Source of the DNA: Oerskovia douganii | GTDB lineage: Bacteria; Actinomycetota; Actinomycetes; Actinomycetales; Cellulomonadaceae | NCBI RefSeq assembly: GCF_015142735.1 | Contig: NZ_JACSPN010000012.1 | Location: 1-64,000, forward strand | Direction: 5' to 3' | Length of the DNA stretch: 64,000 nucleotides | Part shown: positions 3,195-39,545 of the stretch, in pieces | Layout: every line of letters starts with the position of its first letter | Position numbering within the stretch: position 1 is the stretch's first letter | The notes under the pieces: generated by a model | What the model saw: only the letters and a program-made list of their open reading frames with translations | Databases searched by the model: none | Told to the model about the DNA's origin: nothing | Position numbers and translations under genes: made by a program

Positions 3195-5837
3195 ATGGAA
3201 TCGCGAAGAGCTGCCGACCCCGCCCACCTGCTCGTCGGAGTGGTCCTGGGGGCCGACCCCGCGACCGTGGCGACGTTCCTGGCCGGTATCGAGCCGGACC
3301 TCGAGGGGCTGGGGGATCGGGCACGGGTCCTCCTCGTGAGCTCGGACGCGGAGGTCCGGGCTCTGGCCACGCGCTGGGCCGCGGCGCACGCCCCGACCGT
3401 CGAGCTCGTCGACGGGCCTGACGACCTGATCGAGGGGCGGAACGCCGTGCTCACGGCCCCGCTGCCGACGGGATGGCCGGCCGCGCAGACCTGGGTCCAC
3501 GTCCCCGACGTCCGAGACCTGCCTCTTCCCGGGGCATGGAAGCGATACCTGGAAGGAGCGACGGCCTTTCCGGAGGCAGCGGTGCTCCGCGGGGTGTCGG
3601 CCGAAGACGCCGGCTCGGAGGCTCTGCACCTCGTGGACCTGCGCCGGCAGCCCGAGCTCGCCCCGACCCTCCTGCGCGACTCGGCGGTCCGTGCCGACCT
3701 CCTGGGCTCCGCCGGGCCGCGCCTGGACGCGCGCCTCGCCGCGGGATTCGCCGACGCGCGGCTGCTGGCCGGGGCGCTGCGGGCAGCGTCGGCTCCCACC
3801 GTCGCGTGGGTGCCAGGGGCCGCCTACGTGTTCGGGGAGCGGGACGACGAGCTGACGGGCGGACGGTCGTCGTTCGCCGACCCGCGACGGTTCGTCGAGT
3901 CGCTCCGGGACGGGCACCTCGTCGTCCTGGGGGACGACGCCCCGCCGTGGGCGCAGCACATGGTGCTGTCGGACCTGCAGTGGTACTTCCGGGCCGACGA
4001 GGCGCTGAGCGGGCAGATGAACGCTGAGATGCACCATCTCTCGACCGAGTTCCACGCGTTGCTGTCCCAGGTCTGCGCCCGGCTGAGCACCGACGTCCTC
4101 GACGAGGCCCAGGTCCCGCCCGTGCGACGGGCGGCGATCGAGCACGGGCTCCGGGGAAGGACCTGGCACGAGGAGACCGCCCTGCTCGAGGCACGTGACC
4201 GACCGCGGAGACTCGTGCGCCTCGCGTACCTGTTCACGGGCGACCTCCCGGCCGAGGAGGTTCTCGTGGACGGGGCGCCCTCGCGCCCTCGATGGGCCAA
4301 GACGCGGTCCCACGCCTACGCGGGCCGCACCCTCGTCAGTGAGCGCATCCTGTGGGTGCAGCACGGGCAGGACGTGCGGCTGGAGCTCGACGGAGCCACC
4401 GTCCGGGTGGCGCGGACGCGACCGCGCGAACCGCGGCGTCGGTGGACGGCCGCAGCCGTCGCGGCGGCCTTCGCCCCGAGGAAGGAAGCGCCGAGCCTGA
4501 CGCCCGGGCAGCAGGCACGCAAGCTCGCGAGCCCGTCGTGGTGGCGCGAGAAGCTCGTGCTGATGCTGGCCGGGACAGGTGCCGTGCGCCGGCGCTTTGC
4601 CGGGGCCTGGGTCCTGCTGGACCGGGTCGAGAGCGCCAACGACAATGCCGAGCACCTGTTCGCCCACCTGCGCCGGACCAGGCCGGACCATCGGGCGTTC
4701 TTCGCCGTCGAGCGGGGGACCGCGGACTGGAAGCGTCTTCGCGCGGACCACGGCGCGCAGGTCCTCGCCTACGGCTCCCTCCGGTGGAAGCTCGTGTGCC
4801 TCAACGCGACGCACGTCCTGTCCTCGCAGGCCGGCCCGTACGTCTCGAACCCCGAGGCGCTCCGGCCCTTCGGACGGCGGTCGTGGAAGTTCGTCTTTCT
4901 CCAGCACGGGGTCATCGCGACCGACCTGTCGCGCTGGCTCAACCGGCGCACCTTCGATCTCTTCGTCACCTCGACGCCCGCGGAGTTCGCGTCGATCGCG
5001 GGGGACGGAGGGTTGTACAGGTACACGCCCCGCGAGGTGGTCCTGACGGGTCTGCCTCGGCACGACCGGCTCGTCTCGCTCGACCGGTCGGGGTCCGTCC
5101 GCCAGGACCGTCTGCTCCTGGTCCCGTCGTGGCGGGAGTACCTCCTGGTGGGCCAGGCGGACGCGACCGGACGGCGCGCGCTCCGGGAGGACTTCGAGCA
5201 GACGCACTACGCCCGCGCCTGGTGGGGGCTGCTGCGCTCCGAGGAGCTGCGCGCCTTTGCGTCCGACCACGGGCTACGGATCGCCTTCATGCCGCACCCC
5301 AACATCCAGCCCTACCTCGCCAGCCTCGACGTGCCTGACCACGTCGAGGTGCTCACCTACGCCGGCAACGACATCCAGGAGGTGCTCGTCAGCGCGCGCG
5401 TGGTCGTCACGGACTTCTCGTCCATCGTCTTCGACACCGCGCTGATCCGCAGGCCCATGGCGTACTACCAGTTCGACCAGGCCGAGGCGTTCGGGGGGAC
5501 CCACACGGTCCGCCAGGGGTACTTCGGCTATCCGGAGGACGGGTTCGGCCCGGTGGTCGAGACCGAGGAGGCACTTCTCGCCGCTCTGCGCGACATCGCC
5601 CAGGACGGGTTCGAGCTCTCCCCGCTCTACCAGGAGCGGGCCGCAGCGGCGTTCCCCGCCCCGGACGACGGGGCGTGCGAGCGCGTTCTGCACGCCGTCC
5701 ACGAGCTGGATACGCCGACGAGCGATGCCCCTGTCGCGGTCCCCCCGTCGCCGCCCAACCGACCGACCCCACGTGTTCCTGCCGTCCCCGGGACCGGGGG
5801 GCGAGAGGCCGCCGGAAGGGCCTTCGGCAGCCTCTAG
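3195..5837 (+). CDS. CDP-glycerol glycerophosphotransferase family protein (TagF-like) with degenerate N-terminal GT domain
   Basis: 880 residues. The C-terminal half is a CDP-glycerol:poly(glycerophosphate) glycerophosphotransferase domain with the family's marks in order: FVFLQHGV near 565, LVPSWREYL near 640, FMPHPNIQPYL near 698, and VVVTDFSSIVFD near 736. It polymerises teichoic-acid-like polyol phosphate at the cytoplasmic membrane face. The first 230 residues line up with the GT2 domain of the next gene, but the DDG and DPDD nucleotide/metal motifs are absent (VHVPDVRDL replaces the DPDD region), so that domain is probably not catalytic. The middle part is also paralogous to the next gene. 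The ATG has a GGAAG ribosome site. It lies 1 nt from the next start, so the two are surely one operon. Confidence 0.88.
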   Translation: MESRRAADPAHLLVGVVLGADPATVATFLAGIEPDLEGLGDRARVLLVSSDAEVRALATRWAAAHAPTVELVDGPDDLIEGRNAVLTAPLPTGWPAAQTWVHVPDVRDLPLPGAWKRYLEGATAFPEAAVLRGVSAEDAGSEALHLVDLRRQPELAPTLLRDSAVRADLLGSAGPRLDARLAAGFADARLLAGALRAASAPTVAWVPGAAYVFGERDDELTGGRSSFADPRRFVESLRDGHLVVLGDDAPPWAQHMVLSDLQWYFRADEALSGQMNAEMHHLSTEFHALLSQVCARLSTDVLDEAQVPPVRRAAIEHGLRGRTWHEETALLEARDRPRRLVRLAYLFTGDLPAEEVLVDGAPSRPRWAKTRSHAYAGRTLVSERILWVQHGQDVRLELDGATVRVARTRPREPRRRWTAAAVAAAFAPRKEAPSLTPGQQARKLASPSWWREKLVLMLAGTGAVRRRFAGAWVLLDRVESANDNAEHLFAHLRRTRPDHRAFFAVERGTADWKRLRADHGAQVLAYGSLRWKLVCLNATHVLSSQAGPYVSNPEALRPFGRRSWKFVFLQHGVIATDLSRWLNRRTFDLFVTSTPAEFASIAGDGGLYRYTPREVVLTGLPRHDRLVSLDRSGSVRQDRLLLVPSWREYLLVGQADATGRRALREDFEQTHYARAWWGLLRSEELRAFASDHGLRIAFMPHPNIQPYLASLDVPDHVEVLTYAGNDIQEVLVSARVVVTDFSSIVFDTALIRRPMAYYQFDQAEAFGGTHTVRQGYFGYPEDGFGPVVETEEALLAALRDIAQDGFELSPLYQERAAAAFPAPDDGACERVLHAVHELDTPTSDAPVAVPPSPPNRPTPRVPAVPGTGGREAAGRAFGSL

Positions 5838-5838
5838 G

Positions 5839-8565
5839 ATGTCCTCGACGTCCGATGCGAGACGCGAGTACTCGAACATGGGGAAGACCGAAGTGATGCA
5901 AGCAGTGGGGAGCGCGGTCGAGACGGACCCCGCTGGGGAGTCGCACCAGATCGACCCTGACAGATCCCTCCCGTGGCTGACCGTGGTCACGGCGGTGTAC
6001 GGAGCCGAGGACTACCTGGCCGACTTCATCCACTCCCTGGAGCAGCAGGGGGAGGACCTCGCGGGCGTCCGCGTCGTCGCCGTCGACGACGGGTCGCCCG
6101 ACTCGAGCGGCGCACTCCTCGATGCGTGGGCGGAGCGGTCGCCAGGACTCGTCCAGGTGATCCATCAGGAGAACGGGGGAGCGGCGGCGGCGCGCAACGC
6201 GGGTCTGGCCCTGGTCGAGACCCCGTGGGTGACCTTCGCCGACCCGGACGACATCCTGGAGAGCGGCTACTTCCGCTCGGTCCGCGCCTTCCTCGAGGCG
6301 AACGGTGAGGTGTCCATGGCGGTGACCAAGCTGGTCTTCCTCCACGAGGCGACCGGGCAGCTCACCGACTCGCACCCGCTCCGGTTCCGGTTCGAGCGCG
6401 GCAACCAGGTGGTGGACATCTCCCGGTTCCCCGACTACTTCCACCTGTCGGCAGCCACCGGGTTCTTCCGGCGCGAGGTGATGGAAGGCCTCGACCTCCG
6501 TTTCGACGAGCGGATCCGCCCGAACTTCGAGGACGGGCACTTCATCGTGCGCTACCTGCTCGGAGCGCGGTCGTCGGCCGTCGGGTTCGTGGCCGACGCC
6601 CGCTACAGGTACCGCAAGCGAGCCGCCGGCTCGTCCCAGATCGACACCGCGCTCACGCACCCCGAGCGCTTCACGAACGTTCTCCGGTTCGGCTACCTGG
6701 ACGCAGCGAAGCGCGCCGTCGAGGCGACGGGAGAGGTCCCGCGCTGGCTCCAGACGCTGCTCGTCTACGAGCTCCAATGGTTGCTCTCGGCCGACGAGGG
6801 GATGTTCGGGCGCAGCGCAGCCACCGTCGGGGTGGCAGACGAGTACATCGATCTCATGTTCGAGATCCGCAGGTACATCGGCACGGACGCCATCCGCTCG
6901 TACGCGATCACGCCGATGCCCCTGATCCGGCGGCTCGTGCTCGAGCGCGGGCTGGTGGCCGAGGACTGGGTCACGCCGAGGGTGACCCTCCAGACCGTCG
7001 ACACGACGGAACGCTGGGTCCGGCTGACCTATCACTTCGTGGGTCGACGGCCCACCGAGGAGATCCTCGTCTCAGGCCGGGTCGCGACGACGACCAAGGC
7101 GAAGTACCGCAGGATCGAGCACGCCGAGCGACCGATGATGTGGGAGCGCATCATATGGTTGCCCATGCGGGGGACGATCGAGATTCGGCTCGACGGGGTG
7201 GCCATGCCGCTCGTCCGGCAGGGTCAGCACCTCGTGCCGACCGTGATCCGGGCCGGGGACGTCGACAAGCTCTTCGGGAACATCCCGAGGTTCCGCAAGC
7301 CCAAGGCGGGCGTCAAGAACCCCAAGCGTTCGACCGGATGGTGGGAACGCACCTTCGGTGAGAAGGCACGAACGGCTCGCGGAGCCGCCCGGACCCAGCG
7401 GATCGCGGAGTCGAGGCTGGTCCGTCGGTTCTTCGCCGACGCCTGGGTCCTCATGGACCGTGACAGCAATGCGTCCGACAGCGCCGAGCACCTGTTCAAG
7501 CACCTGCGGGCGAAACACCGTGAGATCAACGGGTGGTTCGTGATCCGGAGGGGGACGGCGGACTGGAAGCGTCTTCGTCGCGAGGGCTACAAGCGCGTCG
7601 TGCCGTACGGGTCCTTCGCATGGAAGCTCCTCGCGCTCAACGCCACGTTCATGGTCTCGTCGCACGCCGACGCGTTCGTGTACCGCCCTCCGGAGATGAA
7701 GGACCTCGGGCCGCTCCGCTGGCGCTTCGTGTTCCTCCAGCACGGCGTGACCAAGGACGACATCTCGAGGTGGCTGCGGGGGAAGCCGATCCGTCTCCTG
7801 GTCACCACGACGACGGGCGAGCACGAGTCGTTCGTGGGCGACGGCAGCTCCTACGACCTGACGGCACGCGAGGTCGTGCGGGCCGGACTCCCGCGACACG
7901 ACCGGCTGGTGAAGCTCGGGAAGGAGTGGGACGGTCGTCGCGACACCATCCTCGTCATGCCGACGTGGCGTCACTACCTGGTCGGAGAACGCGACGTGAC
8001 GGGGGCGCGCGCGGCCGACGCCTCCTTCGGGTCGTCGGACTTCGCGACCGCGTGGCGCGCCCTGCTGACGTCGGACACGCTCCGTGAGCTCGCGGTCCGT
8101 ACCAGGACCAAGGTCGTCCTCATGCCTCACCCCAACCTCTCGCCCTATCTCGGGGCCTGGGGCCTGCCCGACTGGGTCACGGTCGGCAGCTACGAGAGCG
8201 TCGACGTCCAGGAGATGATCGCGCGGGCGAAGGTCCTCGTGACGGACTACACGTCGGTCGCTTTCGACGCCGCGGTCATCAGGCGACCGAGCGTCTACTA
8301 CCAGTTCGACAGGGACCGGGTCTTCGGAGGTGGGCACACCATGCGGGTGGGGTACTTCGACTACGCCCGCGACGGGTTCGGACCGGTGCACACGGACGCC
8401 GAGTCGGTCCTCTCCTCCGTGGAGACGATCGTCGGCGACGGCGGCAGGCCCCAGGACGAGTACCTGGCCCGGATGGAGCAGGCCCTTCCCCACCGCGGCG
8501 GCAGCAACAGCGAACGCGTCGTGAAGGCGATCGCGAAGATCGAGAAGGACATGCGCTGGGTCTGA
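5839..8565 (+). CDS. bifunctional GT2 glycosyltransferase / CDP-glycerol glycerophosphotransferase (TagF-like)
   Basis: 908 residues from the ATG at 5839; ATG 5878 is an in-frame alternative and neither has a strong ribosome site. The N-terminus is a GT-A (family 2) domain: LTVVTAVYGAEDYL near 47, VVAVDDGSPDSS near 82, FADPDDILESGYF near 132. The C-terminal glycerophosphotransferase domain has FVFLQHGVTKDD near 631, MPHPNLSPYL near 761 and LVTDYTSVAFD near 800. Fusion of a sugar transferase to a polyol-phosphate polymerase suggests a mixed sugar/polyol-phosphate wall polymer. Paralogous to the preceding gene, which has lost the GT motifs. The pair is followed by a strong terminator palindrome. 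Confidence 0.88.
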   Translation: MSSTSDARREYSNMGKTEVMQAVGSAVETDPAGESHQIDPDRSLPWLTVVTAVYGAEDYLADFIHSLEQQGEDLAGVRVVAVDDGSPDSSGALLDAWAERSPGLVQVIHQENGGAAAARNAGLALVETPWVTFADPDDILESGYFRSVRAFLEANGEVSMAVTKLVFLHEATGQLTDSHPLRFRFERGNQVVDISRFPDYFHLSAATGFFRREVMEGLDLRFDERIRPNFEDGHFIVRYLLGARSSAVGFVADARYRYRKRAAGSSQIDTALTHPERFTNVLRFGYLDAAKRAVEATGEVPRWLQTLLVYELQWLLSADEGMFGRSAATVGVADEYIDLMFEIRRYIGTDAIRSYAITPMPLIRRLVLERGLVAEDWVTPRVTLQTVDTTERWVRLTYHFVGRRPTEEILVSGRVATTTKAKYRRIEHAERPMMWERIIWLPMRGTIEIRLDGVAMPLVRQGQHLVPTVIRAGDVDKLFGNIPRFRKPKAGVKNPKRSTGWWERTFGEKARTARGAARTQRIAESRLVRRFFADAWVLMDRDSNASDSAEHLFKHLRAKHREINGWFVIRRGTADWKRLRREGYKRVVPYGSFAWKLLALNATFMVSSHADAFVYRPPEMKDLGPLRWRFVFLQHGVTKDDISRWLRGKPIRLLVTTTTGEHESFVGDGSSYDLTAREVVRAGLPRHDRLVKLGKEWDGRRDTILVMPTWRHYLVGERDVTGARAADASFGSSDFATAWRALLTSDTLRELAVRTRTKVVLMPHPNLSPYLGAWGLPDWVTVGSYESVDVQEMIARAKVLVTDYTSVAFDAAVIRRPSVYYQFDRDRVFGGGHTMRVGYFDYARDGFGPVHTDAESVLSSVETIVGDGGRPQDEYLARMEQALPHRGGSNSERVVKAIAKIEKDMRWV

Positions 8566-8571
8566 GGCGCG

Positions 8572-8621
8572 GACATGACGACGGGCCCGACTCCTGCAGG
8601 AGTCGGGCCCGTCGTCATGTC
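8572..8621. terminator. 50-bp perfect palindrome, two-way terminator
   Basis: Arms at 8572-8594 and 8599-8621 are exact complements (23 bp), and the TGCA centre is itself palindromic, so all 50 bases form one perfect palindrome. It lies just after the stop of the TagF-like operon and before the oppositely directed Ig-like gene. No T-tract is seen, as is common in high-GC actinobacteria. Confidence 0.85.
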
Positions 8622-8713
8622 GGCAGCGTCACCGGTGCGGCGAGCGGAGTCCCGGCCCGACGTGGGTGCACGTCGGGCAGGGCAGGCTCACCGCAGCGAG
8701 GTGGGCGGGCAGG

Positions 8714-10963
8714 TCAAGACCTTGCCACGTACTGGATCGAGACGTACTCCCAGGACGAGGTGTCCCGAACCCGCCACGTGCCACCTGAGATGTAGGCGCT
8801 CGGCACGACGGCGACTGCCGTGAACTCTGCGCACTCGTCGTATCCGATCGCCGGCGTTTCCCAGATGCTCCCCGGGACGTAGGCGTCGCCGTCGTCGTAG
8901 ACGACGCCGTTCGACCCGACGAACTCCACGTCGAGGTCCAGCCACGGATAGGCGGTGCCCTCGCCCGAGTAGCAGACGGCGGCAGGAGCCGTCAGGAGGT
9001 GGGAGCTGCCTGCGTAGGGGGTGTTGCTCGTGCTCCCGAACACGCCGATCCACGACGTCAGCGGGAACAGGTGCCCGGGACGGTAGGGGTCGGTCCGCGT
9101 CGAGTCGACGAAGAGGAACACCGGCGTCGAGTACCTCGTCCCGGCGACGTTCGAGACCTTGACACGGTACTGCTTGCTCCCGTGGACGGTCTTCGCCGTG
9201 AAGGACAGGGTGGACGTCGTCCTGCCGACCATGTTCGTCCAGGTCGTCCCGTCGTCGCTGACCTGCCACTGGTAGCTCAGGCCACCCCCGGTAGCGGTGA
9301 CGGTGAACTTCGCGTTCTGACCGGTGCTGACCCATGACGCCTGCGGCTGGCCCGTGATCCTCGGGGTCGCGATGCCGACCGGCCAGGCGACCTTGGCGGT
9401 GGGGGTGCTGGTGCGGGTGGCGGTGATGTAGGCGGTGCGCTTGCCGGTGGTGGTGACGGTGATGGTCTTGCCGTGGTGGGCGGTGGTGAGGGTGAGGGTG
9501 TTGCGGGTGGCTCCGGTGATGGGGGTGCCGTTGGCCTTCCACTGGTAGGTCGTGGTGGTGGCGGCGGGGGTCCAGGTGGGTGCGGTGGCTCGGAGGGTGG
9601 AGCCGACGCGTGCGGTGCCGGTGATGGTGGGGGCCTTGGTCGTGGTGAAGGGCTTGACGACGGTGGCGGTGGCGGTGCTGGTGCGGGTGGTGGTGGTGTA
9701 GCCGGTGCGCTTGGCGGTGACGGTGAACGTGATGCGCTTGGCGTGGTCGGCGGTGGTGAGGGTGTAGGTGGAGCGGGTGGCGCCCTTGATGGCGATGCCG
9801 TTGCGCTTCCACTGGTAGGTGTAGGTCGCGGTGGGGGACCAGGTGCCGCGTGAGGCGGTGAGGGTGGAGCCGACGCGTGCGGTGCCGGTGATCTTGGGTG
9901 CGGGGGCGGTGGTGAAGATGCCGGCGGTGACGGCGGTGGTGGCGGTGCTGGTGAGGGTCTTGGTGGTGTAGCCGGGGCGGGTGGCGGTGACGGTGAGGGT
10001 CAGGCGCTTGCCGAGGTCGGTCGCGGTGGGGGTGTAGGTCGCGGTGGTCGCGCCCTTGATCGCGAGGTTGTTGGCCTTCCACTGGTAGCTCAGGGCCGCT
10101 CCGGGGGCCCAGGTCCCGGGCTGGGCGGTGAGGGTGCTGCCCACGCGTGCCGTCCCGGAGACCACCGGGACCGGCGACGCCGAGAACACGGCCAGGGCCA
10201 CCTTGGCGGTCGAGGCGCTCACGACGGACTGCGTCGCGTAGCCGGGGAGGGACCCGGTGACGCTCACGCTGAAGGAGGCTCCGGCGTCGGAGGCGCCCAG
10301 GACGATCGACGGGCCGGTGGCACCGAGGATCGGCTGGCCGTCACGCAGCCACTGGATCGAGAGCGCTGCCGCGGGCGACCAGGAGGGGATCGTGACCGTG
10401 AGGGTCGACCCGACGGCCGCAGAGCCGCTGATGACCGGGACGGTGGTGACGAGCGTCCCGTCGGAGACGGGTGCCGTCGGGGCGCTCGAGACCGTCACGG
10501 GAGCTGCGCCGTCGAGCGTGCCGGTCACGTCGGCGCGGAGCACCACGCCGGCGAGGGTCGCGGGGATCGAGAGGGTGGCCTCGGTCGCACCCTCGATCGC
10601 GATCTCGTCCGCGAACCACTGGTACGTGAGCGCCGTGGCGGCCGGGGTCCAGCCGTCGCTCGTGACCGTGACGGTGGCACCGACCTGCGGTGTCCCCGTG
10701 ACAGCGGGAGCCTGCTCCGGTGCGACGACGGTCGGGGTCTCGTCGACCGCCGGCTCGGTGGGAGCGGCCTCGCCCGGTCCTCCTGCGGCAGGCGGCTCAG
10801 GAGCGGGAGGGGCCTCGACGGCAGTCTCGACCGCCGCGGGCTCGGCGGTCGGCTCTGCCTTCGCGGCGCCGGCAAGGGCGACGGGACCGACGAACAGCGA
10901 CAGGGCCGTGACCGTCGCCGTGAGGATCCGCGCGCGGTGGCGCGCGGAGGAGGTTCGTGACAT
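8714..10963 (-). CDS. secreted Ig-like repeat protein (surface protein 1)
   Basis: 749 residues. A basic N-terminus and hydrophobic stretch (TALSLFVGPVALAG) form a signal peptide ending near AKA at about 35. An Ala/Pro/Glu-rich linker follows, then five Ig-like repeats of about 90 residues with the signature GTARVGSTL...TYQWK..G..I.GAT...Y, then one I-set-like domain (QPQASWVSTGQNAKFTV, near 535-620). A C-terminal domain of about 130 residues (DPYRPGHLFPL to the end) was not recognised; it has two Cys. No sortase motif or membrane anchor is visible. Residues about 292-522 are encoded by DNA identical to part of the next gene. The GGAG ribosome site lies in a conserved leader. Probably an extracellular or wall-associated stalk; the ligand is unknown. 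Confidence 0.82.
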   Translation of the reverse strand: MSRTSSARHRARILTATVTALSLFVGPVALAGAAKAEPTAEPAAVETAVEAPPAPEPPAAGGPGEAAPTEPAVDETPTVVAPEQAPAVTGTPQVGATVTVTSDGWTPAATALTYQWFADEIAIEGATEATLSIPATLAGVVLRADVTGTLDGAAPVTVSSAPTAPVSDGTLVTTVPVISGSAAVGSTLTVTIPSWSPAAALSIQWLRDGQPILGATGPSIVLGASDAGASFSVSVTGSLPGYATQSVVSASTAKVALAVFSASPVPVVSGTARVGSTLTAQPGTWAPGAALSYQWKANNLAIKGATTATYTPTATDLGKRLTLTVTATRPGYTTKTLTSTATTAVTAGIFTTAPAPKITGTARVGSTLTASRGTWSPTATYTYQWKRNGIAIKGATRSTYTLTTADHAKRITFTVTAKRTGYTTTTRTSTATATVVKPFTTTKAPTITGTARVGSTLRATAPTWTPAATTTTYQWKANGTPITGATRNTLTLTTAHHGKTITVTTTGKRTAYITATRTSTPTAKVAWPVGIATPRITGQPQASWVSTGQNAKFTVTATGGGLSYQWQVSDDGTTWTNMVGRTTSTLSFTAKTVHGSKQYRVKVSNVAGTRYSTPVFLFVDSTRTDPYRPGHLFPLTSWIGVFGSTSNTPYAGSSHLLTAPAAVCYSGEGTAYPWLDLDVEFVGSNGVVYDDGDAYVPGSIWETPAIGYDECAEFTAVAVVPSAYISGGTWRVRDTSSWEYVSIQYVARS
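9396..10088 (-). repeat. copy A of a 693-bp perfect direct repeat
   Basis: Identical base for base to 11617-12309 (offset 2221), checked line by line. It spans about 2.6 Ig-like repeat units. Flanks diverge at once on both sides. The strongly ACC-biased Thr codons in this block differ from the mixed ACG/ACC use outside it. Confidence 0.95.
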
Positions 10964-11016
10964 GCGGGCTCCACTTCGAGTAGCCGCCCCACCGTGGGTC
11001 GGCGACCAGAGACTAG
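10964..11016 (-). promoter_or_regulatory. conserved 53-nt leader of Ig-like gene 1
   Basis: Aligns without gaps to 13398-13450 upstream of the second Ig-like gene with only a few substitutions, and similarity stops at CTAGTCTC. In the sense direction it has two adjacent small hairpins (GGTCG/CGACC and CCCAC/GTGGG) and then the GGAG ribosome site before ATG. TAGTCT at its upstream edge fits a -10 box, which would put the transcript start near the first hairpin. It may be a shared promoter plus 5' UTR element; the mechanism is unknown. Confidence 0.5.
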
Positions 11017-11128
11017 TGGTACTGGAGTGCCTGCGGATACCGAAATGTCCCTTCTGGGCGAGCAGGGGCGGGTGAATTATCCGGTGGTCGACACCCGGCC
11101 CGCACAGGGCGGCAGGCCCGCCGGACGA

Positions 11129-11164
11129 AAGAGGGGCCGACTCCCGACGGAGCCGACCCCTCTT
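11129..11164 (-). terminator. terminator of Ig-like gene 2
   Basis: A 16-bp stem (11129-11144 with 11149-11164, two G-T pairs in the minus-strand RNA) and a 4-nt loop, 25 nt after the stop of the second Ig-like gene. It separates that gene from the promoter of the first. Confidence 0.8.
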
Positions 11165-11189
11165 CGAGCCCAGGACGGGCGAGCAAGCG

Positions 11190-13397
11190 CTACCGCTTCG
11201 ACTTGCGGTAGCCCGCCGCGACGGCCTGCGCCTCGGTGTCGAAGCACGCCTCAGGGATGGTCACGGCGTAGAACTGGCCTCCCGGTACGTGGTAGATCCA
11301 CTCGCCCGAGCTGGAGTGGTTCCCCTTGACACGGCAGCTGCTGACCTTCGCGGTCGGAGCGCTCACGCGGCTCGCCGTCGCGTAGGTGGAGCGCGATCCC
11401 GTGACGGTCACGGTGATCCGCTTGCCCACGTCGCTCGCGGTCAGGCGGTAGGACGTGCTGCGCGCGCCGGGGATCGTGACGCCGTCCCGCTTCCAGGTGT
11501 AGGTCAGCGACGCGCTGGGCGACCATGCCGGGGTCCACGCCGAGAGCGTGGTGCCCAACCAGGCGTTGCCGGAGACCACCGGAGCGGACGTGGACGCGAA
11601 CGCACGGGTCACTGCCGCGGTGGGGGTGCTGGTGCGGGTGGCGGTGATGTAGGCGGTGCGCTTGCCGGTGGTGGTGACGGTGATGGTCTTGCCGTGGTGG
11701 GCGGTGGTGAGGGTGAGGGTGTTGCGGGTGGCTCCGGTGATGGGGGTGCCGTTGGCCTTCCACTGGTAGGTCGTGGTGGTGGCGGCGGGGGTCCAGGTGG
11801 GTGCGGTGGCTCGGAGGGTGGAGCCGACGCGTGCGGTGCCGGTGATGGTGGGGGCCTTGGTCGTGGTGAAGGGCTTGACGACGGTGGCGGTGGCGGTGCT
11901 GGTGCGGGTGGTGGTGGTGTAGCCGGTGCGCTTGGCGGTGACGGTGAACGTGATGCGCTTGGCGTGGTCGGCGGTGGTGAGGGTGTAGGTGGAGCGGGTG
12001 GCGCCCTTGATGGCGATGCCGTTGCGCTTCCACTGGTAGGTGTAGGTCGCGGTGGGGGACCAGGTGCCGCGTGAGGCGGTGAGGGTGGAGCCGACGCGTG
12101 CGGTGCCGGTGATCTTGGGTGCGGGGGCGGTGGTGAAGATGCCGGCGGTGACGGCGGTGGTGGCGGTGCTGGTGAGGGTCTTGGTGGTGTAGCCGGGGCG
12201 GGTGGCGGTGACGGTGAGGGTCAGGCGCTTGCCGAGGTCGGTCGCGGTGGGGGTGTAGGTCGCGGTGGTCGCGCCCTTGATCGCGAGGTTGTTGGCCTTC
12301 CACTGGTAGGTGAAGGTGGCTCCGGGGGTCCAGGTCCCGGGCTGGGCGGTGAGCTTGCTCCCGACCCGGACCGCTCCCGCGACGACCGGGACCGGCGACG
12401 CCGAGAACACGCCCGCGGCGACGACCTGCGCGGCGCTCGTCCGGGCCACGGTCTCGTACCCGTACCTGGATGCCCTCAGCGTGACGGCGAGCTTCTTGCC
12501 GTGGTCCGCAGCGACGGGAGTGTAGGTGGAGGCGGTGGCCCCGGGGACGGGCTTGCCGTCGACGAGCCACTGGTAGGTGAAGCTCGCGCCCTCGGTCCAG
12601 CGACCGGTCATGGCGTCCACGCGCGAGCCGACCCGGACTGTCCCGGCGAGCGTGGGATCGGGTGAGGTCGTGAACGCGGCGAGGGTCACGGGTGTCGTGG
12701 GGGTGCTGGCAGCGGTCACGGCCTCGTACCCGGGACGGGACGCCGTGACCCTGACCGAGATGCGGGCGCCGACGTCGGTCAGGAGCGGGCGGTACGTCGG
12801 TTCGCCGTAGGCCGTCGACACACCGTCGCGGAACCACTCGTACCTCAGGTCGACGGGAACGGGCCAGGTGGGGGTGGTGACCGACAGGGTCGAGCCGAAC
12901 GCTGGCTTCCCGACGATCGTCGGGACGAAGTCGCCCAGGACCCTCGCGCTGACCGGGGGCGTCGGGGCGGTCCTCACGGTGACCGGGTCGGCGCCGGTCG
13001 CGGAGCCCGTGACCTCGGCGAGGAGCGTCGCGCCCATCAGGTCGTCGGTCACGAGCAGGTCGGGGCCGGTGGCGCCGGCGACCGGAACGGTGGTGCCCTC
13101 GTGCTCGGCGAACCACTGGTAGGTGAGCGTCACGTCCTCCGGCAACCACGGCAGGGTGTAGACGGTGACCGTCTCGCCCGGGACCGGGATCCCGCCGATC
13201 ACCGGTCGGTCGGTGGGCGGCACCACGACGGGGGCCGGCGGGGGGACCGGGTCCGCAGCGGACGAGACCTGTGCGCTGCCGACAGGTTCGGGGCCGGCAG
13301 GTGCCGCGACGGCCGCGGGGGCCACGAGGATCGACAGTGCCGTGACGGCCGCTGTCAGCAGCCCGGGGAACCGGCGGGAGGACGAGGGACGAGACAT
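11190..13397 (-). CDS. secreted Ig-like repeat protein with C-terminal sunset domain (surface protein 2)
   Basis: 735 residues from the ATG at 13397. The start was chosen because it gives a signal peptide (TALSILVAPAAVAA) matching the paralogue and sits behind the same conserved leader and GGAG. A Pro-rich linker is followed by seven Ig-like repeats of about 90 residues. The last 50 residues (CRVKGNHSSSGEWIYHVPGG, then EACFDTEAEA-like and AAGYRKSKR) match the sunset domain, a small two-Cys module found at the ends of secreted bacterial proteins. Residues about 363-593 are encoded by the DNA shared exactly with gene 1. Likely a cell-surface or secreted stalk carrying the sunset module; no wall-sorting signal is visible. 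Confidence 0.83.
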   Translation of the reverse strand: MSRPSSSRRFPGLLTAAVTALSILVAPAAVAAPAGPEPVGSAQVSSAADPVPPPAPVVVPPTDRPVIGGIPVPGETVTVYTLPWLPEDVTLTYQWFAEHEGTTVPVAGATGPDLLVTDDLMGATLLAEVTGSATGADPVTVRTAPTPPVSARVLGDFVPTIVGKPAFGSTLSVTTPTWPVPVDLRYEWFRDGVSTAYGEPTYRPLLTDVGARISVRVTASRPGYEAVTAASTPTTPVTLAAFTTSPDPTLAGTVRVGSRVDAMTGRWTEGASFTYQWLVDGKPVPGATASTYTPVAADHGKKLAVTLRASRYGYETVARTSAAQVVAAGVFSASPVPVVAGAVRVGSKLTAQPGTWTPGATFTYQWKANNLAIKGATTATYTPTATDLGKRLTLTVTATRPGYTTKTLTSTATTAVTAGIFTTAPAPKITGTARVGSTLTASRGTWSPTATYTYQWKRNGIAIKGATRSTYTLTTADHAKRITFTVTAKRTGYTTTTRTSTATATVVKPFTTTKAPTITGTARVGSTLRATAPTWTPAATTTTYQWKANGTPITGATRNTLTLTTAHHGKTITVTTTGKRTAYITATRTSTPTAAVTRAFASTSAPVVSGNAWLGTTLSAWTPAWSPSASLTYTWKRDGVTIPGARSTSYRLTASDVGKRITVTVTGSRSTYATASRVSAPTAKVSSCRVKGNHSSSGEWIYHVPGGQFYAVTIPEACFDTEAQAVAAGYRKSKR
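11617..12309 (-). repeat. copy B of a 693-bp perfect direct repeat
   Basis: Identical to 9396-10088 in the neighbouring paralogue, in the same orientation. Recombination between the copies would delete 2221 bp and leave a hybrid gene that joins the N-terminus of protein 2 to the C-terminus of protein 1. Confidence 0.95.
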
Positions 13398-13450
13398 GCG
13401 GGCTCCACTTCGTGTGGCCGTCCCACCGTGGGTCGGCGACCCGAGACTAG
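13398..13450 (-). promoter_or_regulatory. conserved 53-nt leader of Ig-like gene 2
   Basis: Second copy of the element at 10964-11016, with the same paired hairpins, the TAGTCT edge, GGAG and spacing to ATG. The leader is better conserved than the signal-peptide coding sequence that follows it, which suggests it is under selection rather than only a duplication remnant. Confidence 0.5.
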
Positions 13451-13520
13451 CCGTCGCCCACCGCCCGTGGGCGCCCGTGGACGGGATCGGCCCGCCTCGA
13501 GCGGGTGAAGTTCTTCCGCG

Positions 13521-13574
13521 GGCCCGACGGCGGAGCCCGGCCCGCGCACGGGAGGTCCCCGCCGCCGTCGGGCC
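13521..13574. repeat. 13-bp perfect inverted repeat in the intergenic region
   Basis: Arms 13521-13533 and 13562-13574 are exact complements with a 28-nt spacer. It lies upstream of the Ig-like gene 2 leader and just beyond the proX terminator hairpin. It could be a second terminator stem or an operator. Nothing else is seen in this gap. Confidence 0.5.
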
Positions 13575-13582
13575 TGGACGCA

Positions 13583-13619
13583 CGACAGGCCGGCACCCCC
13601 GTGGGGTGCCGGCCTGTCG
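13583..13619 (-). terminator. terminator of the proVWX operon
   Basis: A perfect 17-bp stem (13583-13599 with 13603-13619) and a 3-nt loop, 19 nt after the proX stop. Confidence 0.85.
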
Positions 13620-13637
13620 CGAGGCGGGGAGCGGAGG

Positions 13638-14558
13638 TCAGGCCTTCGCGGCGGCCTTGAGGTCGTCGACGAACGTCGGGTTCGCCTCGAGCCACTCACG
13701 CACCGAGGCGTCGTTGTCGGAGCCGCCGTTCTCGTTGAACATGATGTTCTCGAGCGAGAAGAGCTGCTCGTCGGTCAGGGTCAGCGCGGAGATCCAGGAC
13801 GCGACGTCGGGGTGGTCCTCGGTGAAGCCGGTGCGTGCGACCGTGTGGATCTTCTCGGCCTCGCCCATGGCGCCCTTCGGGTCCTCGAGGTCCTTGACGG
13901 GGAACGCGTCGTAGGCCCAGTGGGGACGCCACAGCGTCACGGCGACGTTCTCGCCCGCGTCGGTCTTGCTCTTGAGCTCGGCAAGCATGGCGGGCGTCGA
14001 GGAGATGACGAAGTCCATCTCGTCGAGTCCGTAGCCCGGGATGGCCTCGTCCTGGGTGATGCGGGTCAGGCCCGCGCCGGACTCGATGCCGACGAGACGG
14101 TTGTCGAACTGGTCGGCGTTCGCGGCGAGCTCCTCGAGGCTGTCGACCGGGGCGTCCTCGTTGACCGCGATGGTCAGCTTGGCGTCGTCGTACCAGTAAC
14201 CGAGGTCCTCGAGGTCGTCGCCGTACTGCTTCTTGTAGTCGGCGTGCGTGAGCGGGAGCCACATGTCGAAGTTCAGGTCGAAGTCGCCCCCGGCCATGCC
14301 CGTGTAGACGATCCCGGGGTCGGCGGTCTCGGTGCTGACGTCGTAGCCCTCGTCCTCGAGGATCGCCTTGAACAGGTGGGAGACGGCGATGCCCTCGTCC
14401 CAGCCCGAGTGGATCGCGATGGTGATGTCCTTGTCGGCCTCGCCCGAGCCGCCGGCGTCGGTGCCCGAGGCGCAGGCCGAGAGCCCGAGGCCCAGGGCCA
14501 GCGTGGAGGCGACGACCGCGGTGCGACGACGGGCCTGGTGGTGACGTGCGGGAGACAT
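13638..14558 (-). CDS. proX: glycine betaine/proline ABC transporter substrate-binding lipoprotein
   Basis: 306 residues. The N-terminus is a lipoprotein signal with lipobox LSAC (Cys near residue 29), so the mature protein is anchored outside the membrane. The rest is an OpuAC-type periplasmic-binding domain (ITIAIHSGWDEGIAVSHL, MWLPLTHADY, VGIESGAGLT, NVAVTLWRPHWAYDAFPVK). The Trp-containing segments are in keeping with the aromatic cage that binds quaternary ammonium compounds in this family. Third gene of proV-proW-proX, 105 nt after proW. The usual role is uptake of compatible solutes under osmotic stress; choline or another quaternary amine is an alternative substrate. Confidence 0.9.
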   Translation of the reverse strand: MSPARHHQARRRTAVVASTLALGLGLSACASGTDAGGSGEADKDITIAIHSGWDEGIAVSHLFKAILEDEGYDVSTETADPGIVYTGMAGGDFDLNFDMWLPLTHADYKKQYGDDLEDLGYWYDDAKLTIAVNEDAPVDSLEELAANADQFDNRLVGIESGAGLTRITQDEAIPGYGLDEMDFVISSTPAMLAELKSKTDAGENVAVTLWRPHWAYDAFPVKDLEDPKGAMGEAEKIHTVARTGFTEDHPDVASWISALTLTDEQLFSLENIMFNENGGSDNDASVREWLEANPTFVDDLKAAAKA

Positions 14559-14663
14559 GGTGTCCTTCCTTCGCGGGCAGGCCGCTGGCGCGGCGAGACC
14601 CGTCTGGGTGGTGGTGGTGCAGGGAGTGCGGGGCCGCCCGGGCGGGACCGGGCGGGCGGAGGC

Positions 14664-15535
14664 TCAGACGGCCGTGGCGGCGAGCGCCTTGGCGACGGGC
14701 GAGCGGGTGCTGAGCGCTGCGGTGACACGGTCGAGGAAGACCGCGAGGATCACCACGGACAGGCCCGCCTCGAAGCCGAGCGAGATGTTGATGCGCTGGA
14801 GCGCCGCGACGACGTCGCCTCCGAGGCCGCCCGCGCCGACCAGGCCGGCGAGCACGACCATCGAGAGCGAGAGCATGATGACCTGGTTGACGCCGGCCAT
14901 GATGGTCGGCATGGCGAGGGGGAGCTGGATCTGGCGCAGGATGCGCCCGGGGGTGGAACCGAACGCGTGGCCGGCCTCGACGACCTCGGAGTCCACCTGC
15001 CGGATGCCCAGCTCGGTGAAGCGGACGCCGGGGGCGAGCGCGAACACGACGGTCGCGACGATGCCGGGGACGGCGCCCGTGAGGAAGATCATGACCATGG
15101 GGATGAGGTAGACGAACCCCGGCATGGTCTGCATGAAGTCGAGCACCGGGCGCACGACGCGTGAGACCTTGTCGTTCCGGGCGGCCCAGATGCCCAGCGG
15201 GATGCCGATCGCGAGCGCGATCACGCTGGCCACGAGCACGAGGGCGAGCGTCGCCATCGCGTTGTCCCACTGGTCGACGCTCGCGATGACGACGAACCCG
15301 ACGAGGGTCGTGACGGCGAGCCGCCATCCCTTGGCGAAGAACGCGAGGGCGGCCAGGACGAGCGCGACGACGACGAACGGCGGCCCCTGGAGGACCGACG
15401 CGAGGGCGTCGTAGCAGGTCAGCAGGACGTCCTTGACGACCGCGAAGAAGGGCTTGAACGTCGCGATGAGCCAGGTGACGAACACGTCGACCCAGTCACC
15501 GAGCGGCAGGCGGGGGATGAACGTGTCGGTGGCGC

Positions 15536-39380: not shown

Positions 39381-39545
39381 CAGTCGTCACGGGGAACGGT
39401 TGGTAGGGGACCCGTGCGGCCGCAGAGCGATCGACCCGAGGCTAGGTCCTCGGGCAAGGAGGTGATAGGTACTCCGGATCCCCCTCGGGGGAACCAGACC
39501 CAGGACCACACGGGACGCTCTGGAGAACCGGGAGCGTCCGAGACC
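39381..39545 (+). ncRNA. structured leader RNA upstream of hpf, candidate raiA-motif RNA
   Basis: The 219-nt gap before hpf contains a run of perfect stems: CACGGG/CCCGTG (39388-39416), CCCGAGG/CCTCGGG (39435-39454), CCCCC/GGGGG (39480-39491) and GGACGCTC/GAGCGTCC (39513-39539). A TAACCT -10-like box lies at 39369-39374. Position and size fit the raiA-motif noncoding RNA described upstream of hpf/raiA genes in Firmicutes and Actinobacteria. I did not align it to the consensus, so the class assignment is inference; the dense folding is directly visible. Confidence 0.5.

Follow-up and report, generated by a model that had tools for sequence, protein, structure and literature searches.

The window analyzed here comprises 64,000 nucleotides of the Oerskovia douganii genome (contig NZ_JACSPN010000012.1). 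Two genes for proteins with Ig-like repeats, here called A and B, lie in tandem on its minus strand, and each is immediately preceded by a 53-nucleotide leader (Table 1). The C terminus of gene B encodes an NCBIfam ‘sunset’ domain (NF051437; positions 11196-11330) that scores 52.2 bits against a cut-off of 27, and a search of literature titles for this domain found nothing relevant. Gene B is in turn preceded by a proX-like gene whose product carries an OpuAC domain (201.7 bits). Adjoining the Ig-like pair are two genes whose products carry CDP-glycerol glycerophosphotransferase domains (Pfam PF04464; positions 3195-5837 and 5725-8565), for which tblastn found no match in the regions read behind proX in six congeners. 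Perhaps these genes and the Ig-like pair constitute one variable surface locus.

Table 1. Features of the tandem Ig-like gene locus (window positions).
Feature	Coordinates	Strand	Evidence or remarks
Gene A	8714..10963	-	749-aa product; Ig-like repeats; signal peptide by eye; Pfam Ig_3 30.6 bits (cut-off 30)
693-bp tract in gene A	9396..10088	-	exact copy of 11617-12309
Leader copy 1, before gene A	10964..11016	-	ungapped, 49/53 identical to copy 2
TAGTCT, -10-like box, copy 1 (putative promoter, no -35)	11010..11015	-	sequence
Strong hairpin 3′ of gene B, likely terminator	11117..11172	-	-39.7 kcal/mol, z -4.63, 0/200 shuffles as stable
Gene B	11190..13397	-	735-aa product; signal peptide by eye; Ig-like repeats; C-terminal sunset domain
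693-bp tract in gene B	11617..12309	-	exact copy of 9396-10088
Leader copy 2, before gene B	13398..13450	-	ungapped, 49/53 identical to copy 1
TAGTCT, -10-like box, copy 2 (putative)	13444..13449	-	sequence
Strong hairpin between proX-like gene and gene B, likely terminator	13578..13625	-	-44 kcal/mol, z -7.14, 0/200 shuffles as stable

A sequence-only reading of this DNA had proposed that the two leaders align without gaps and with about five changes. The ungapped alignment holds, and the number of changes is four (leader positions 9, 30, 35 and 38), corresponding to 92% identity. Within its own genome the leader matches its partner with a BLASTN E value of 5.8e-19, whereas the best 53-nucleotide match among 20 pairs of base-shuffled upstream regions reached only 30 identities. 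The likeness of the two leaders is far beyond chance.

The conserved block extends from the TAGTCT box to the start codon, and its upper edge at CTAGTCT is sharp. The 53-nucleotide block just upstream has 18 identities (Fisher p 2.6e-10 for leader versus upstream block), and the next five blocks have 20, 14, 17, 13 and 18, in agreement with the abrupt end of similarity that had been described. Successive 54-nucleotide blocks from the ATG onward retain 35, 32, 24 and 11 matches when compared without gaps, a procedure by which indels lower the later values. Likewise, the signal-peptide codons are indeed more diverged than the leader: the first 36 codons share 67 of 108 nucleotides, nine of their 18 fourfold sites differ, and 19 of the 36 signal-peptide residues are alike. 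The four changes among 53 leader positions are significantly fewer than those at the fourfold sites (p 2.6e-4) or across the codons after the ATG (42/108 changed; p 1.5e-5; both Fisher tests). Both copies carry GGAG followed by five bases and the ATG, as the earlier reading had stated, and both place GGAG 37 nucleotides and the ATG 46 nucleotides after the end of the box. The intervening segment, from box to ribosome-binding site, is conserved as strongly as the box itself.

Constraint on N-terminal coding sequence was considered as a cause of leader conservation and was rejected for gene A. The reading frame of this gene is open for ~99 codons upstream of the start (848 versus 749 codons), but no in-frame ATG, GTG or TTG occurs in this upstream extension (before position 10963). 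Gene B has an in-frame GTG upstream, at position 13583, and translation of its leader from this codon may be possible. By our own codon reading, two of the four leader changes would be synonymous in the frame of the ATG.

Bacterial -10 boxes follow the pattern TAnnnT. TAGTCT fits this pattern in both copies at a plausible distance from the start codon and, since it borders the conserved block, is the obvious candidate for a predicted promoter element. However, a scan of positions 8500-14700 for sigma-70-type promoters called no site, and no -35 box was found 16-18 nucleotides from the -10-like box, nor is any -35 conserved between the copies. Stable hairpins precede both transcription units (Table 1), although a terminator scan that requires a run of T nucleotides made no call at either one. 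Because a strong hairpin lies before each unit, genes A and B probably each have their own promoter. Of the earlier proposal that the leader is a shared promoter plus an RNA element, the first part is thus retained in the form of a promoter and translation start region, which is the best reading given the conservation from box to ATG and the hairpin before each gene, and the RNA element is not. Elsewhere in the window, CTAGCCTCGGGTCG (positions 39432-39445, minus strand) differs at a single base from the beginning of the leader; no frame there exceeds 104 codons, and this site may be a similar promoter or a chance occurrence. If up to three mismatches are allowed, the window contains 22 matches to the leader's first 14 nucleotides, fewer than in shuffled sequences (mean 38.9).

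We considered whether the leader RNA might be a structured regulatory element, such as a riboswitch, a thermosensor or a protein-bound leader, that controls translation. Both copies can form a hairpin of eight pairs across leader positions 14-34, which is unchanged between them, and a second hairpin of three to four pairs (positions 35-45) reaches the first G of GGAG. In the latter, three pairs are kept, one of them by a change from U-G to C-G, and the closing pair is lost in copy 2. Pairing potential is retained in 23 of 24 cells, as judged with a structure drawn from the same two sequences. However, the folding energies are those of shuffled sequences, as evident by z values for the two copies of 0.00 and -0.48 (56 nucleotides), -0.19 and -1.33 (49 nucleotides), and -1.45 and 1.52 (86 nucleotides), and the minimum-energy structures of the copies differ. 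The two tiny adjacent hairpins reported earlier are thus weakly supported; their pairing potential is preserved, and no common stable fold was seen in the two copies. The small hairpins GGTC/GACC and CCCA/TGGG, read by eye, overlap in bases and are mutually exclusive. No pair is altered on both sides, although covariation could hardly have appeared with two sequences and four changes, which speak neither for nor against an RNA fold.

Searches with Rfam models were consistent with the earlier statement that the leader could not be matched to a known riboswitch. The whole window gave no match at the gathering score, positions 10900-11150 around copy 1 gave one chance-like match (E 5.9), and 12 loci of relatives gave only 16S rRNA and a tRNA. 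With energies equal to those of shuffles, different favored folds, no doubly altered pair, no Rfam match and no copy found elsewhere, we judge a structured regulatory RNA to be very unlikely indeed, despite the hairpin that is possible in both copies and the one that touches GGAG. The proposal of an RNA element dedicated to surface proteins is likewise not supported by these results, since only two copies were found, none of them in the relatives searched, and the leaders of the other Ig-like genes read are unrelated.

Just 3′ of the -10-like box are two overlapping inverted repeats, CCCACSGTGGG and GGTCGCCGACC, both intact in both copies, and these raise the possibility that the leader is a putative operator for a DNA-binding regulator. 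A further point in favor of an operator comes from a more distant relative, in which one Ig-like gene has CCCACCGTGGG in its leader (locus L211 of genome G010, positions 3342-3352); the palindrome is the same as in the window leaders. This leader is the best of 30 from relatives, but its likeness is reached by three of 200 shuffles, which is approximately what 30 tries give and is not significant alone. Moreover, CCCACSGTGGG is no more common in the genome than its reversed control pattern, with six places each, and the four sites outside the leaders fall within stop-to-stop frames of 209-613 codons, which constitutes weak coding evidence at 73% G+C. The longer, 18-nucleotide palindrome pattern has 19 matches with up to two mismatches, of which at least four are the leaders themselves, against ten for the control. 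Sites of the kind expected for a regulon, lying upstream of genes and exceeding chance in number, were not found in this genome. No regulon is indicated by these counts, and a diverged one may exist. On balance we consider an operator quite improbable.

Within the leader's own genome, three approaches (BLASTN, a sequence-only model, and a 41-nucleotide pattern that tolerates three mismatches) all recover two copies only; the model scores the leaders at 64.9 and 62.8 bits and the next site at 16.4. Among the six congeners the best model score is 17.6 bits, at a site lacking a start codon at the expected place, and the regions behind proX yield at most 10.2 bits when the model is run with filters off. 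Across 150 family genomes, which include our own and the six congeners and were searched with stricter filters and at most 37 candidates scored per genome, no comparable third copy was found, and the best foreign score is 21.6 bits. Thirty-one of these genomes have a match at E ≤0.05. Besides the two leaders there are 36 such matches, for which 29 loci were opened; five of the 27 readable loci have a GTG near the expected place, and none of the five looks signal-peptide-like by eye.

A BLASTN search with the leader of 59 genomes (our own and 58 relatives) gave a match at E ≤1 in at least 49, and those in relatives are short. Among the matches listed, five of 29 relative loci have a start codon within 6 nucleotides of the expected place that opens a frame of at least 60 codons. 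One of these (L030, positions 1501-1535), from a genome of the same order but another family (G058), matches the 3′ half of the leader over 35 nucleotides (83% identity), and an in-register ATG there opens a frame of 71 codons. This is the sole result that leans toward a wider distribution of the leader; the frame is short and by eye not Ig-like, and the match is a probable chance occurrence. The other four (L035, L038, L044 and L045) rest on 16-26 nucleotides. An exact 19-mer of the leader occurs in six stretches of a genome contig collection, all from unrelated organisms. Viral contigs do not match a 21-nucleotide leader pattern, and five plasmid records match the Ig-like part but none matches the leaders. 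Separately, 48 loci in viral contigs carry relatives of the Ig repeats. The earlier reading had held that a lack of further copies in relatives and of covariation would point to a recent duplication only. No further copies were found and no covariation was seen in the two sequences available, but a recent duplication alone is not a valid conclusion, given the strong divergence already present in the flanking codons.

No match to protein B at E 1e-10 was found in the six congeners, and the place behind proX is variable in the genus. Two congeners (G001 and G005, at loci L170 and L169) carry at this place a different secreted repeat protein, as judged by eye, with an unrelated leader and a single C-terminal Ig-like repeat that is 34-42% identical. 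In the other four, 12.6-12.7 kb read behind proX gave no Ig-like match at E 1e-5. More broadly, 37 of 61 family genomes, our own included, have a match at E 1e-6 to the N-terminal 242 residues of protein B.

We compared the leader with 30 others, drawn from 20 regions of nine genomes and from the two congener loci. Start positions in relatives were assigned heuristically; at least two (L204 and L212) are doubtful, and one frame at L211 that received no start was dropped. With starts so assigned, none of the 30 leaders stands out, and they are unrelated to the leader studied here. At eight other loci with two Ig-like genes, the paired leaders match at 10 to 24 of 53 positions. Two such pairs have signal peptides roughly as similar as those of the present pair (21/36 and 15/36 residues alike, versus 19/36) but leaders that agree no better than chance (16/53 and 14/53), which indicates that leader conservation is a property of the present pair. 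As a separate observation, a long inverted repeat (GGGAGTCGACCA/TGGTCGACTCCC) can be seen by eye in the L214 leader and a shorter one in the L206 leader; in each case an ATCGA-AGG-like ribosome-binding site comes next, ahead of a relative's gene for a secreted Ig-like protein.

Tandem duplicated genes can be homogenized in part by gene conversion. Genes A and B share an exact 693-bp tract (Table 1), and outside of it they mostly show ~35-75% identity per 50 columns, with values rising beside the tract. From the sequences, this identity points to recent exchange by gene conversion, or to an assembly artifact in this draft of 69 contigs, and conversion probably acts on this pair. An earlier event of this kind might have copied the leader. 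Under this alternative, gene conversion or a later partial exchange between the two genes would have transferred it, with no special selection. Consistent with this alternative, an exchange within diverged coding sequence has probably occurred, and the absence of a protein B match at E 1e-10 in the six congeners suggests that the pair may be a young acquisition of this lineage. However, one end of a converted tract would have to coincide almost exactly with the -10-like box and the other to lie near the start codon; moreover, the leader has four changes whereas the central tract has none. Conversion as the whole cause thus seems somewhat unlikely, though a good deal less so than an operator or a structured RNA. 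A literature search, by title, on tandem duplication with gene conversion and on promoters found nothing relevant.

Taken together, the data lead us to favor, with moderate confidence, a leader that comprises a core promoter, a short 5′ UTR and a ribosome-binding site, maintained by selection in an old tandem duplicate and perhaps aided by conversion. Each of the two genes for secreted Ig-like proteins would have, within its 53 nucleotides, a -10 box with no recognizable -35, a short 5′ UTR and a ribosome-binding site, with transcription predicted to start ~6-7 nucleotides after TAGTCT. The duplication would be old, as suggested by the large divergence of the sequence outside the block and of synonymous sites at the gene starts. 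We propose that a need of both genes for the same expression has preserved the block, and the 693-bp tract suggests that conversion possibly helped to keep it. What we infer from these features is that the leader acts as a promoter, that the hairpins terminate transcription and that selection caused the conservation.

This promoter reading is consistent with conservation that begins at the -10-like box and falls after the ATG, and with the intact GGAG and its spacing; the two edges of the block appear to favor selection, if not decisively. Against it stand the lack of a called sigma-70-type site and of a conserved -35, a segment between box and ribosome-binding site that is more conserved than a plain promoter needs, the possibility that conversion could have homogenized the leader, the GTG upstream of gene B, from which its leader may be translated, and two Ig-like pairs of relatives with similar signal peptides, which show no such constraint, so that it is not general. 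A more elaborate arrangement seems improbable. In it, the leader would be a cis-regulatory element confined to this lineage, either an operator or an RNA switch masking GGAG, and would co-regulate the recombining pair of Ig-like surface genes, so that chimeras formed by recombination within the identical tract stay under the same control. There is no evidence of a new RNA switch, and an ordinary promoter and ribosome-binding site are most likely.

If selection is responsible, the leader marks a minimal promoter and 5′ UTR in a high-G+C bacterium and lets the extent of constraint on a 5′ UTR be tested cleanly. If conversion is responsible, the pair provides a small system in which to study how surface proteins evolve as mosaics. 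The general picture is unchanged in either case.

The leader resembles the cis-regulatory leaders catalogued in Rfam in its position upstream of a gene, but it matches none of them and gives no sign of a conserved fold. Like tandem duplicates that have been partly homogenized by gene conversion, genes A and B are same-strand neighbors that share one exact 693-bp tract flanked by diverged sequence; they differ from this model in that identity in the leader is 92%, not 100%, and in that functional landmarks mark its two ends. Both leaders share with an ordinary bacterial -10 promoter, followed by a short 5′ UTR and GGAG, the box, the GGAG and the spacing to the start codon. They depart from it in having no detected -35 and in an intervening UTR that is unusually conserved between paralogs.
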